From: Nitrospirota bacterium
Lineage (GTDB): Bacteria; Nitrospirota; Nitrospiria; Nitrospirales; UBA8639
Assembly (NCBI GenBank): GCA_027623995.1
Contig: JAQBUF010000011.1
Location: 1-64,000 of the forward strand
Reading direction: 5' to 3'
Length of the DNA: 64,000 bases
Position numbers and translations under genes: made by a program. Numbering within the stretch: the stretch's first letter is position 1; each line of letters starts with the position of its first letter. Positions 46,191-50,211 of this stretch are shown here, piece after piece. A model generated the notes under the pieces. That model was not told the DNA's origin. It worked only from the letters and a program-made list of their open reading frames with translations, and did not search any database.

Positions 46191-47867
46191 ATGATCCAAC
46201 CATCTTCCCTACTTCAAGCCACACTCGATCATCTTCCCAAGCAGCCGGGCGTGTATTTAATGAAGGGGAAGCAGGACGAAATTTTATACATTGGCAAGGC
46301 GCGAGTATTGGCTGATCGCGTGCGGTCCTACTTTCAAAAGGGGACCGACCTCAGCCCGAAGAACCAGGTGCTGGTTGGGCTGGTGTATGACATTGAAACC
46401 ATAGTGACTAAATCTGAGCTTGAGGCGCTGTTGCTCGAAAGCAATTTAGTCAAGCGTCATCGTCCACGATATAACATTGTCCTTCGAGACGATAAGCACT
46501 ACCCGTACCTTCGCCTTCCAGTCAAAGAAAATTTCCCGAGGTTATCCATTGTACGACGCGTCAAACACGATGGCGCGTTGTATTTCGGCCCCTACGTCCC
46601 AACCGGGGCGTTGCGTGAAACATTAAAAATCATCAAGAAAGTCTTTCCCCTGGCCACCTGTAAGATCGAGATCAATGGCACCGCCGACCGAGCCTGCATT
46701 GAGTTCGAAATCAAACGCTGCATGGCGCCGTGTACCGGCAATCAATCCCAAGAAGACTATCATCGTATCGTCAAGCAAGTTCGGTATTTTTTAGAAGGCC
46801 GGGACAAGGAATTGCTGGACGGGTTGCGAACGGAAATGGAAAGCGCGGCAAATCGGGAAGAGTTTGAAGAAGCCGCACGTCTGCGTGATCGAATCGCGAA
46901 TATTTCCAGGACCTTGGAAAAACAACGTATCGCCCAAATCGGCCCGGTCGATCAGGACGTGATGGGGCTCGCCCGCATGGGTCCGGCGGCGGACTTGCAA
47001 CTCCTGTTTGTGCGAGGCGGGCAGCTTATTGGACGAAAGGACTTTTTCTGGGCCGATACGAAAGAAGCGACAGATGAGGAACTCATTCGGTCGACGATCG
47101 AACAATTTTACAACAAAGAAATGTTGCCACCGAAGGAGGTGTTAATTCCGACGGATTTGGGTGAGCGAGAATTGATCCAACAATGGTTGTCAGCAAAGAG
47201 ACAGCAAACCGTTCGTATTCTCACACCCGAGCGGGGCGTCAAGCACCACTTGCTGCAACTCGCACAAGAAAATGCCGTCGCCGCGATTGCCGAGCATTTG
47301 CGCAAAGGGGTCGTCGAAGAAAAAGAAGCCAAGGAACTTCAGCAGCTCCTTCGTCTACCCAAGGCATTGGGCCGCATTGAAGGGTTCGATATTTCCAACA
47401 CCATGGGCACGAATTCCGTGGCCTCGATGGTGGTCTGGGAAGACGGAAAAATGAAAAAATCTGACTATCGGCGTTTCAAAATCAAAACCGTAGAAGGAGC
47501 CAATGACTTTGCCAGCATGCACGAAGTCGTCAAACGGCGGTACGGCGGATCACTCAGCACGAATAAAAAAAAAGCCTTGCCCATTCCTGATTTAGTCCTG
47601 ATCGACGGCGGAATTGGCCAGCTGGGCGCGGCCATTGAAGCGCTCAGAGAATTGGGTTTGAAACATGTTCCGATTGTTGGCCTCGCCAAAGCCAAAGGCG
47701 AAAAAGAAGAACGAATTTATTCCCCAGGCATTCGAGAACCCCTGATCTTGTCTCCCACATCCTTCTCCTCTCACCTCGTCCAACGCATCCGCGACGAAGC
47801 CCACCGTTTCGCCATCACCTACCACCGCAAACTCCGCGGGCAGGCATTGATTTCTCACTCAAGATAG
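46191..47867 (+). CDS. uvrC: Excinuclease ABC subunit C, lacking the C-terminal HhH domain
   Basis: UvrC makes both incisions in nucleotide excision repair. Present are the GIY-YIG nuclease (PGVYLMKGKQDEILYIGKAR, residues ~18-60, 3' cut), the Cys-rich region (CIEFEIKRCMAPCTG), the UVR helix pair that binds UvrB (EEFEEAARLRDRIANISRTL), and the RNase H-like 5' nuclease (GFDISNTMGTNSVASMVVWE, DLVLIDGGIGQLGAAIEAL, DEAHRFAITYHRKLRG). The protein stops at residue 558, just after that domain. The ~50-residue tandem helix-hairpin-helix that normally follows is missing and is not found in other frames downstream. Some substrates may still be cut, since HhH is needed mainly for certain lesions. Confidence 0.93.
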   Translation: MIQPSSLLQATLDHLPKQPGVYLMKGKQDEILYIGKARVLADRVRSYFQKGTDLSPKNQVLVGLVYDIETIVTKSELEALLLESNLVKRHRPRYNIVLRDDKHYPYLRLPVKENFPRLSIVRRVKHDGALYFGPYVPTGALRETLKIIKKVFPLATCKIEINGTADRACIEFEIKRCMAPCTGNQSQEDYHRIVKQVRYFLEGRDKELLDGLRTEMESAANREEFEEAARLRDRIANISRTLEKQRIAQIGPVDQDVMGLARMGPAADLQLLFVRGGQLIGRKDFFWADTKEATDEELIRSTIEQFYNKEMLPPKEVLIPTDLGERELIQQWLSAKRQQTVRILTPERGVKHHLLQLAQENAVAAIAEHLRKGVVEEKEAKELQQLLRLPKALGRIEGFDISNTMGTNSVASMVVWEDGKMKKSDYRRFKIKTVEGANDFASMHEVVKRRYGGSLSTNKKKALPIPDLVLIDGGIGQLGAAIEALRELGLKHVPIVGLAKAKGEKEERIYSPGIREPLILSPTSFSSHLVQRIRDEAHRFAITYHRKLRGQALISHSR

Positions 47868-47992
47868 TCCGGAACCACATATGTCAGGGAATCTTGAAAG
47901 GTCTCCAATTTAGAGAGGTCCCAATCCAAAAGGGCAAACAAGGTGTCAGCTTTGGTTGATAGGCATAGCTTCCCTTTCGACCTTGCACTATT
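47855..47992 (-). pseudogene. Possible 45-codon minus-strand coding remnant overlapping the uvrC end
   Basis: From a TAA at 47993-47995 to a TGA at 47855-47857 runs an open frame without ATG. It reads KGKLCLSTKADTLFALLDWD, then LSKLETFQDSLTYVVPDYLE. The amino acid usage looks protein-like, and the end overlaps the last 13 nt of uvrC. I cannot name the family. It may be the tail of a gene whose arrival cut off the uvrC 3' end. Confidence 0.3.
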
Positions 47993-48240
47993 TTAGCAGT
48001 CAAAGGTAACTTTTGAGGCATTATTCACGTTTTTGACTTGTCGTGAAATATGTGGCATTGCAATATAACCTCTGTGCCCCAGGGGGTTTTAACATAAACG
48101 GACTGGTCTTCGTGAATCTGTCTTTCGATTGTGATTTTTCAAAAAAAATTGGTCAGATAGGGTCCATAAAAATTTTGAATTATTCACTAAATCTTTATTT
48201 CGTAAATGCTGAGGGAAAACCTGTATAATGGTGAACTGCT
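47993..48240. other. AT-rich gap upstream of the three-gene cassette
   Basis: This sequence is markedly AT-rich (CAAAAAAAATTGGTCAG, ATAAAAATTTTGAATTATTC). A 61-codon plus-strand frame at 48043-48228 has no ribosome-binding site and a low-complexity product, so I do not count it as a gene. It probably holds the cassette's promoter. TTGAAT..TTTATT-like elements are present, but no pair is convincing. Confidence 0.45.
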
Positions 48241-48978
48241 ATGGCCCAATACCGACATCTAAAAAATGCCCCAATAAATGAGGCTCTTATAGACCTTCGG
48301 GTGAAGCTACCTGAGGATAAACGAAAGGTTGACCTGCTTGAAAAAATGCACGACCAAATTAAAGACCGCTTTCCTGAGAAAAAACAACAAATCGAACATA
48401 GATTAGAATTTCATTCTGGGCCACCCTCAACCGAAAAAAAGACTACAGACCATGTTGGATATAGATTCGCCAGTGAAGATGGCTTATGGGTGGTTCAAGC
48501 GACCATAAATGGATTTACTTTAAGCAGGTTAAAACCCTATGAAACATGGGAAAATCTTCGAGATGAGGCCAAACAAATTTGGAGAATCTACGAAGACATA
48601 CTTAGTCCAGAGGCCGTTACCCGTGTAGCTACGCGTTTTATAAATAAAATTGAGATACCAGGGCCAAATATTGATTTTGATGATTACCTTACAGCTGCTC
48701 CAGTTATTCCAAAAGCACTCTCGCAAATTATGATGGGGTTTTTTTCTCGGGTTGTAGTCCCAGACGAAAAATCAAAGTCTGTGGGTATAATAACCCAAAA
48801 CTTTGAGCCAGGAATTAATCCACAGGTTATTCCAATTCTTTTAGATATTGATGTTTTTAAGGAAAAATTATTTGAAATCCAAGATCCCATTTGGGATACA
48901 ATTGATTGCCTAAGGGAAGTGAAGAATCGCATATTTTTCGATAGTATTACTGAGAAAACAGCGGGGTTATTTGAATGA
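48241..48978 (+). CDS. TIGR04255-family protein (cassette gene 1)
   Basis: This 245-residue protein has the family's start (YRHLKNAPINEALIDLRVKL), then VGYRFASEDGLWVVQATING and FTLSRLKPYETWENLRDEAK. The middle block is RVATRFINKIEIPGPNIDFD, followed by VIPILLDIDVFKE and VKNRIFFDSITEKTAGLFE at the end. The function of the family is unknown. It is scattered across bacteria and archaea in accessory positions. The ATG is preceded by GGTGAACTGCT. Its last codons overlap the next start by 4 nt. Base composition is clearly richer in A/T than uvrC and leuS on either side, which suggests transfer. Confidence 0.85.
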   Translation: MAQYRHLKNAPINEALIDLRVKLPEDKRKVDLLEKMHDQIKDRFPEKKQQIEHRLEFHSGPPSTEKKTTDHVGYRFASEDGLWVVQATINGFTLSRLKPYETWENLRDEAKQIWRIYEDILSPEAVTRVATRFINKIEIPGPNIDFDDYLTAAPVIPKALSQIMMGFFSRVVVPDEKSKSVGIITQNFEPGINPQVIPILLDIDVFKEKLFEIQDPIWDTIDCLREVKNRIFFDSITEKTAGLFE

Positions 48979-49469
48979 GCACAGTTGCCTTTACTCAACA
49001 TTCCAGTATAGGTCTCTTTGGTCACTCGGGAAATAGTAGTATGGATGAAATGAGAGGGATCATTGACAAGGAGTCTGACAGGTTTGCTCTTCCGGTAACC
49101 TTCCAGAAGACGAAAGATTCCATTAATTCTATTATTGATGTATTTCGAAAACGTTGCGAACCAAATTGGGATGGATATGATGCTGAGCCGGTGTCGATAG
49201 AAGCTTGCAAGGAGGCTGCGAAATTTTTGCAAAAGCTGCCTTCAACAATTCCCTTGCCTGAAATCATTGCTGAGCCAGATGGCGATATCGGATTGGAGTG
49301 GCATGTAAATAATCGGAACTTATTTGTCATTGGTTTTGCAGGTAAAGAAATTCTTTCTTATTCTGGGCTGTTCGGAAAAGGCAGTAAGGCATCTGGAACA
49401 GAGTACTTTACAGATTCTATCCCACACGTAATCATTGAAAATATTCGACGTGTTTTAGCCCACCATTAA
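48975..49469 (+). CDS. Uncharacterised protein with NWDGYDAEP motif (cassette gene 2)
   Basis: This 164-residue soluble protein is coupled to gene 1 by an ATGA overlap. Conserved-looking segments are CEPNWDGYDAEPVSIEACKE, AAKFLQKLPSTIPLPEIIAE, PDGDIGLEWHVNNRNLFVIG and a C-terminal GTEYFTDSIPHVIIENIRRV. I recall proteins with the NWDGYxAEP...PDGDIxLEW pattern in other genomes beside TIGR04255 genes, always without a known role. The D-G-D and E-W residues could form a catalytic or metal site, but that is a guess. No membrane segment is visible. Confidence 0.75.
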   Translation: MSTVAFTQHSSIGLFGHSGNSSMDEMRGIIDKESDRFALPVTFQKTKDSINSIIDVFRKRCEPNWDGYDAEPVSIEACKEAAKFLQKLPSTIPLPEIIAEPDGDIGLEWHVNNRNLFVIGFAGKEILSYSGLFGKGSKASGTEYFTDSIPHVIIENIRRVLAHH

Positions 49470-49475
49470 AAATCA

Positions 49476-49856
49476 ATGAATCCAGTATCACCAACTGAAA
49501 AGATTTCAAGATACTTAATGGATGAAGACGATATCCGGCCAAGTGATGGTTCACTTCGTTGGCGGGCCCTTATTCCCAATCGGGAAGGCAAGACGTCCGT
49601 TTTTCGGATAAGTGGCCTTTCTGAGCAACAGGTCTGGTCGATTGCGGAAGAAAAAGTCATACCTATTCGAAATAAAAGGTTAGTCGGACGAGCGGATTTA
49701 TTAGCCGCAGTCGTTTATAACAGGAACTTGAATTTTTCCCCGGACGTTGATGCAGCGTCTCGGCACGCGGATATTATTGAGTGGCCAGATGAAAAGGAGA
49801 AACGCAGGTTAATTGCGATGGATCTGGCATCTGAGGCTAAAGTGATAAGAAGGTAG
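49476..49856 (+). CDS. Uncharacterised small protein (cassette gene 3)
   Basis: This 126-residue protein starts 6 nt after gene 2. Segments are EKISRYLMDEDDIRPSDGSL, RWRALIPNREGKTSVFRISG, LSEQQVWSIAEEK, RLVGRADLLAAVVYNRNLNF and a charged tail RHADIIEWPDEKEKRRLIAM. The layout (a short beta part carrying K-T-S-V-F-R, then G-R-A-D, then H-A-D-I-x-x-W-P) seems to be a distinct family that I associate with the two genes before it. No catalytic motif is certain. The three genes form one tightly packed operon, followed at once by repeat A copy 4. Confidence 0.75.
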   Translation: MNPVSPTEKISRYLMDEDDIRPSDGSLRWRALIPNREGKTSVFRISGLSEQQVWSIAEEKVIPIRNKRLVGRADLLAAVVYNRNLNFSPDVDAASRHADIIEWPDEKEKRRLIAMDLASEAKVIRR

Positions 49857-49962
49857 TCTGTTATCAACAAAATTGGGTTCAGACATGAGTATTGAGTTTT
49901 GGTAGACCTTACCTTCACCCCTCCACCCCAAGTTTGAAACTTGATTTGTTTCCCAAGTGTTT

Positions 49963-50158
49963 CCCCGCCTCGGGCGCGGCGGAGCCGCAGTATCGAATTC
50001 GGCTCTTTGGCGAGCATTGTTTGAGCGGAGCGAGTTGCGCAGCCATATAATTCGATGCCGGGGCGGAGTTCACCCGCAGGGCCGCGCACAGGCAAAAATG
50101 GTTTTGGTCACTTTTGCCGAAACAAAAGTGACTCGTCTGCAGGGGCGAAACCCTGCAT
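49963..50158 (+). repeat. Dispersed intergenic repeat family A, copy 4
   Basis: This full copy contains CGGGCGCGGCGGAGCCGCAG, ATCGAATTCGGCTCTTTGGC, TGTTTGAGCGGAGCGAGTT, the stem TCACTTTTGCCGAAACAAAA with GTGA, and a closing GCAGGGGCGAAACCCTGC hairpin. It closes the right side of the three-gene cassette, 106 bp after its last stop. Confidence 0.88.
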
Positions 50159-50211
50159 AGATATTCCTGAACCAAAGATTACGGAATGCTTACATTGTGT
50201 TAACAAGCTCG

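Follow-up and report, generated by a model that had tools for sequence, protein, structure and literature searches.

The closest described systems to the cassette analysed here are the toxin-antitoxin-chaperone (TAC) systems. In CmdTAC, the chaperone CmdC holds the antitoxin CmdA, and a phage capsid protein competes for CmdC. The subsequent degradation of CmdA frees the ADP-ribosyltransferase CmdT (PMC11618068). The antitoxins of TAC systems carry a transferable C-terminal chaperone-addiction tail known as ChAD (PMC5105189). A second precedent is Panacea. There, one constant domain, which sits inside the antitoxin and neutralises the toxin, is combined with many toxins (PMC8832971).

A three-gene cassette in a member of the Nitrospirota shares features with both. 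Like CmdTAC and the HigBA-SecBTA system of M. tuberculosis, it is a three-gene operon of a kind that pairs several candidate toxin families with one partner type, and a transferable terminal extension appears to tie the putative antitoxin to that partner, as in TAC antitoxins (PMC5105189). The differences are equally clear. The partner is a TIGR04255 protein and is not SecB-like, the tail is N-terminal in the cassette as opposed to C-terminal in TAC systems, the gene order would be partner, antitoxin and toxin, and the families of the middle and third genes are new. Since it has neither a SecB-like chaperone nor an antitoxin of a known family, the cassette would work like a TAC system without being a member of that group. 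Unlike Panacea, the cassette has as its constant element a separate protein plus a tail. The best reading of our analysis is a toxin-antitoxin-chaperone-like module with a non-SecB head.

The cassette lies in a 64-kb window, by which we mean the whole stretch of DNA that was analysed (64,000 nucleotides). Its parts are the following.

47868..48240, + strand: AT-rich upstream gap (GC 0.39); by composition, the probable regulatory region of the cassette
48241..48978, + strand: gene 1, 245 aa, TIGR04255; proposed "head" or antitoxin holder and possible sensor
48975..49469, + strand: gene 2, 164 aa, middle protein; proposed antitoxin or adaptor
48975..49166, + strand: N-terminal tail of gene 2, residues 1-64, up to NWDGY; candidate segment for docking to the head
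49167..49469, + strand: C-terminal domain of gene 2, WDGYDAEP ... PDGDIGLEW ... GTEYF; proposed to act as the antitoxin part, with specificity for gene-3-like effectors
49476..49856, + strand: gene 3, 126 aa; proposed effector or toxin of a new family with an R12-S41-H97 signature

An earlier sequence-only reading had placed three open reading frames in one operon, and its coordinates proved exact: genes 1 and 2 overlap by 4 nt (ATGA), and a gap of 6 nt separates genes 2 and 3. The GC content of the cassette is 0.41 (0.385, 0.414 and 0.457 for genes 1, 2 and 3) versus 0.485 for the window. The unusual base composition noted earlier is borne out, as the cassette with the preceding gap exceeds every other stretch of its length in the window in AT content. 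A consensus scan of the + strand of this gap detected no promoter-like site. The motifs quoted earlier for gene 2 and for gene 3 (GKTSVFR, GRADLLAAV and HADIIEWP in the latter) are present and correspond to the conserved motifs of their families.

The flanks of the cassette were described earlier as a uvrC that had lost its 3' domain and a copy of a repeat. The uvrC gene (46191-47867) indeed lacks the C-terminal HhH part. This shortening is not a sign of an insertion, however, as the uvrC of the relatives examined from the same GTDB family likewise lacks the HhH end, which is kept in related families of the same order. The short uvrC is therefore ancestral, and cassette insertion was rejected as its cause. 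The repeat beside the cassette (repeat A, 49900-50165) is also present, with the correction that it is dispersed, matching at 42 places in the genome; its copies are 74-96% identical, and several lie in the contig.

A three-part toxin-antitoxin-like module, its head constant and its payload exchangeable, is in our view a fairly probable explanation of the cassette. More generally, the cassette is probably a three-part toxin-antitoxin system or an alarm against viruses, not a housekeeping operon. Gene 3 would be the effector, a toxin. Gene 2 would be an antitoxin or adaptor whose C-terminal domain recognises and neutralises gene 3. Gene 1, a dedicated antitoxin holder or chaperone and possibly a sensor, would hold gene 2 by the roughly 60 residues of its N-terminal tail. 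With gene 1 on the tail, gene 2 would be stable and gene 3 would be kept off. A signal, such as a phage protein or stress, would draw gene 1 off, and as a result gene 2 would be lost and gene 3 freed. The holder or sensor model for TIGR04255 is drawn by analogy from CmdTAC and the transferable chaperone-addiction tail of TAC antitoxins; complex formation, toxicity, neutralisation and the chaperone or sensor role are putative properties of the cassette.

Gene 1 is a full member of TIGR04255. It matches the family model at positions 2-248 of 252 (E 2e-42, 145.7 bits, cut-off 30), which confirms its earlier assignment to a family of no known role. The NCBIfam entry sporadTIGR04255 assigns no role to the family, and none of the papers in the open-access collection searched names TIGR04255. 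A Pfam search with gene 1 gave no match at E <= 1. Its AF2 model (pLDDT 95, pTM 0.89) has the order b-a-b4-a followed by b-b3-a, and the best Foldseek matches of this model are duplicated beta-alpha-beta4-alpha folds of the AdoMetDC/TBP-like type, with a TMq of about 0.3 or less. SecB was considered as an identity for gene 1 and rejected, with no SecB match in Pfam and no SecB among the 50 PDB fold matches listed for the model. Gene 1 had no counterpart in phage records. Searches of the other two genomes of the genus, one of which is only 64% complete, found no TIGR04255, in line with a recent gain of the cassette here.

The trio of genes recurs far beyond chance and is widespread. In a set of 296 genomes of the phylum, a search with gene 2 found 25 places in 24 genomes, and in 20 of these places the gene immediately before it is a relative of gene 1. 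Divergent TIGR04255 genes occupy the same position in two more (L136 and L138), bringing the total to 22 of 25. The gene-3 profile found 25 places in 22 genomes of the same set, nearly all of which are the gene-2 loci. A wider search with the gene-1 profile, in a collection with one genome per species, returned 214 relatives, of which 80 were kept, and genes 2 and 3 adjoin gene 1 in 42 of the 80. The kept relatives come from Nitrospirota, Planctomycetota, several classes of Proteobacteria, Chloroflexota, Acidobacteria, Cyanobacteria, Neomarinimicrobiota, Omnitrophota, Dadabacteria, a Thaumarchaeota bin and others; many loci are from metagenome bins, and organism names follow the records. The statement in the sequence-only reading that the same trio travels together in other genomes was thus correct, and genes 2 and 3 are not mostly found apart from TIGR04255. 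Scans of viral contigs and of plasmids with genes 2 and 3 found neither gene.

The description of the trio as strict holds from the side of genes 2 and 3 but not from the side of gene 1. TIGR04255 is present in 57 of the 296 genomes at 66 loci, and only about 20 of these are the trio. The family is usually found without genes 2 and 3, in most such cases at the front of a different three-gene cassette; two close small genes follow TIGR04255 in roughly 80% of the 66 loci. Besides several branches of gene-3-like proteins, the third position is occupied by QSCDL proteins (12 loci), HEPN proteins (4), a family of 94-97 aa (4), PIN proteins (3), DUF7689 (2) and a zeta toxin (1), with classes assigned by profile and by hand, partly by eye. 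The three PIN proteins, the zeta toxin (Zeta_toxin, 39 bits, cut-off 22) and DUF7689 reach their Pfam cut-offs, as does one HEPN protein by a small margin; the remaining HEPN third genes fall below. Third-slot proteins of known toxin families therefore exist in sister cassettes (PIN and Zeta), and gene 3 itself has no family match. The third genes of 94-97 aa (L117, L119, L127 and L135) were considered as HicA-like, a label with no support in Pfam or NCBIfam. In four loci (L087, L108, L116 and L125), TIGR04255 and a middle gene are accompanied by a "QDCD" protein. The arrangement extends to plasmids. A Vibrio parahaemolyticus plasmid carries TIGR04255, a hypothetical gene and a gene annotated as "zeta toxin family protein", and plasmids of V. 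furnissii and Crinalium carry TIGR04255 plus two genes.

A tree of 112 TIGR04255 proteins required 16 changes of payload, compared with a minimum of nine and with 54 in shuffles. This indicates that payloads are inherited with the head and are repeatedly exchanged, although single nodes should not be relied on because the tree was built quickly and some of its branches are long. The trio of the window is one version of a widespread and hitherto unexplained bacterial kit, in which a constant TIGR04255 protein goes with a middle protein to match and with a third protein that can be exchanged and is often a known toxin. The remaining TIGR04255 loci are eight divergent solitary genes (L106, L113, L118, L130, L131, L134, L137 and L142) and loci at contig ends or unclassified. 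Several of the eight adjoin very large repeat proteins and export-type genes, and they were perhaps recruited for a different function. Their solitary state counts against the module reading.

The genomic surroundings suggest a role in defence for the class, but not clearly for the trio. Counted as PADLOC models, which overlap and are not gene numbers, the 90 genes neighbouring non-trio TIGR04255 cassettes matched 246, the 90 genes neighbouring trios matched 37 and 90 control genes matched 25. Non-trio neighbours include type I methylases, SNF2-type helicases and DISARM-type genes. These counts give good grounds to suggest defence as a role of the TIGR04255 cassette class. The trio subtype is not clearly enriched, and the expected enrichment in defence islands is strong in the other subtypes. 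One TIGR04255-middle-HEPN cassette (L082, G286:C24, 5219-11175) lies between a type III mod-kind methyltransferase gene and a large helicase-like res-type gene. In L087 and L116 the cassette has an SNF2-type helicase on one side and large methylase genes on the other, and this larger locus is a recurrent one. In searches of PADLOC itself, gene 2 matches PDC-M32A only weakly and locally (52 residues, E 2e-5), and genes 1 and 3 match no system model. The close linkage of genes 2 and 3 to TIGR04255 across many phyla suggests a self-contained toxin-antitoxin or defence-like system, as was proposed earlier; the strictness of the trio from the side of gene 1 is not supported, and its enrichment in defence islands is not clear.

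The non-trio cassettes placed within restriction or DISARM-like loci (L082, L087 and L116, with genes named by eye) also speak for a phage-sensing complex without toxin-antitoxin logic, in which TIGR04255 senses an invader, gene 2 is a passive adaptor and gene 3 is an enzyme that is active only within the complex and would not be toxic when free. We regard this alternative as unlikely. The third-slot genes include PIN and zeta, which elsewhere are free toxins neutralised by their partners, and the neighbours of the trio are not clearly defence genes.

The toxin-antitoxin-like reading gains from the composition of the middle protein, which is a hybrid: its N-terminus goes with TIGR04255 and its C-terminus goes with the third gene. 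Gene 2, like gene 3, has no family in Pfam or NCBIfam, and its invariant residues are P95, G103, W109 and G141. The C-terminal part of gene 2 resembles the middle proteins that accompany two gene-3-like branches, g3c and g3d (hhalign prob 97.6-98), and the tail does not. In general, the middle-protein profiles match by payload in the C-terminal part. In contrast, the first 60-odd residues of gene 2 resemble the N-terminus of the middle proteins of the DUF7689 type (hhalign prob 90, E 1.8e-6, score 31.7), and the rest of these proteins is unmatched. None of 300 column shuffles of the tail alignment reached the real score, the best being 12.7; an earlier script produced one column shuffle above the real tail score, which was treated as an artefact of that script. 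Middle proteins of the DUF7689 type, each weak alone, are also the top-ranked non-trio matches in a search with the tail model. The check for tails in DUF7689 partners that lack TIGR04255 covered one free-standing locus.

A natural exchange illustrates the same division. Gene 1 is 68% identical between L088 and L098, and the middle proteins are similar over residues 1-77 only (E 5e-7 pairwise). The third genes encode a PIN protein and a QSCDL protein with no similarity. In L171, genes 1 and 2 are fused as one protein of 414 aa. This fusion and the co-inheritance of gene 1 and the tail indicate a protein-protein contact. The simplest reading of these comparisons assigns head binding to the tail and effector binding to the remainder, with binding as the conjectural element.

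Some loci lack TIGR04255. In L139, genes 2 and 3 occur without it behind type I restriction genes. Here gene 2 has 121 aa instead of about 164 and lacks most of the tail; it is the single locus of this kind. A RadC-like gene directly follows gene 3 in L139 and stands at the place of gene 3 in L161. In L147 and L299, the place of TIGR04255 is taken by a different first gene of about 100 aa (1612-1950 and 1077-1361), and these two genes, a second kind of head, are related to each other (E 6e-9). L147 has a gene-2/gene-3-like pair, and L299 is a DUF7689 cassette whose middle protein has a different tail. In L148 (5177-7118), a distant gene-3-like protein lies behind two unrelated proteins, of 234 and 278 aa, which may represent yet another type of head, the third.

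The pairs without TIGR04255 in L139 and L147 would fit an arrangement in which genes 2 and 3 are a stand-alone toxin-antitoxin pair and TIGR04255 is a transcriptional or translational autoregulator of the operon rather than a protein holder. An HTH in the middle protein of one other cassette (L094) and the TBP-like matches of the gene-1 model point in the same direction. This arrangement is nonetheless improbable, given the fusion of genes 1 and 2, the joint inheritance of gene 1 and the tail, and the low TMq of the TBP similarity. A complex with a metabolic or signalling function outside conflict that is merely mobile is very improbable, for although solitary TIGR04255 genes do lie beside export-type genes, the sporadic occurrence (57 of 296 genomes for TIGR04255, 24 of 296 for gene 2, not found in the two genus-mates), the exchange with known toxin families, the AT-rich composition and the carriage of relatives on plasmids all argue against it.

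In the three-part toxin-antitoxin-like module, the effector would be gene 3. It is best read as a candidate effector of a new family, with an Arg-Ser-His signature and a confidently predicted fold (AF2 model, pLDDT 97, pTM 0.89). Among 68 gene-3-like proteins in four branches, R12 is conserved in 88%, S41 in 100% and H97 in 98%. R12 is on strand 1, S41 on strand 2 and H97 on a late strand, and there is no glutamate. ART enzymes carry their triads, of the H-Y-E or R-S-E type, at these positions. The predicted order of strands and helices and the positions of R, S and H would fit an ART core in which His replaces Glu, and ADP-ribosyltransferase-type chemistry may be proposed for gene 3 on this basis. 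Its model aligns as a whole with KptA/Tpt1, an RNA 2'-phosphotransferase of the ADP-ribosyltransferase superfamily (9ldi; TMq 0.52, rmsd 4.2, prob 0.57), the sole whole-model match with a TMq above 0.5 among the PDB matches listed, the others having a TMq of 0.30 or less. Because its E-value is 0.99, the match is a lead only; moreover, no sequence similarity to KptA/Tpt1 was found and the catalytic residues of gene 3 differ. Profile comparison gave no sequence similarity of gene 3 to RES or known toxins, and its identity as RES is not supported (hhalign prob < 1). None of 61 genomes of the phylum contains a member of the Tpt1 family. PDB sequence searches with the profiles of genes 1-3 returned nothing of note, and the matches of gene 3 in a viral structure library are weak, none having a described function.

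A bolder form of the toxin-antitoxin-like reading is possible and is offered tentatively. TIGR04255 may be the constant sensor or holder in a large class of three-part toxin-antitoxin systems not yet described. The N-terminal tails of the antitoxins would be grafted onto TIGR04255, which would thus serve as a plug-in platform for at least six kinds of effectors. Gene 3 may be a new ADP-ribosyltransferase-like R-S-H toxin, and TIGR04255 or alternative heads, such as the protein of about 100 aa in L147 and L299, may sense phage. For each middle protein, the model predicts one part that would bind the head and another that would neutralise the effector. If it is true, gene 3 represents a new effector family with three named residues, and TIGR04255, a sporadic family without a function, gains a role as the shared head for many toxins. 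The cassettes would then be a second, SecB-independent solution to chaperone-controlled toxin-antitoxin systems.
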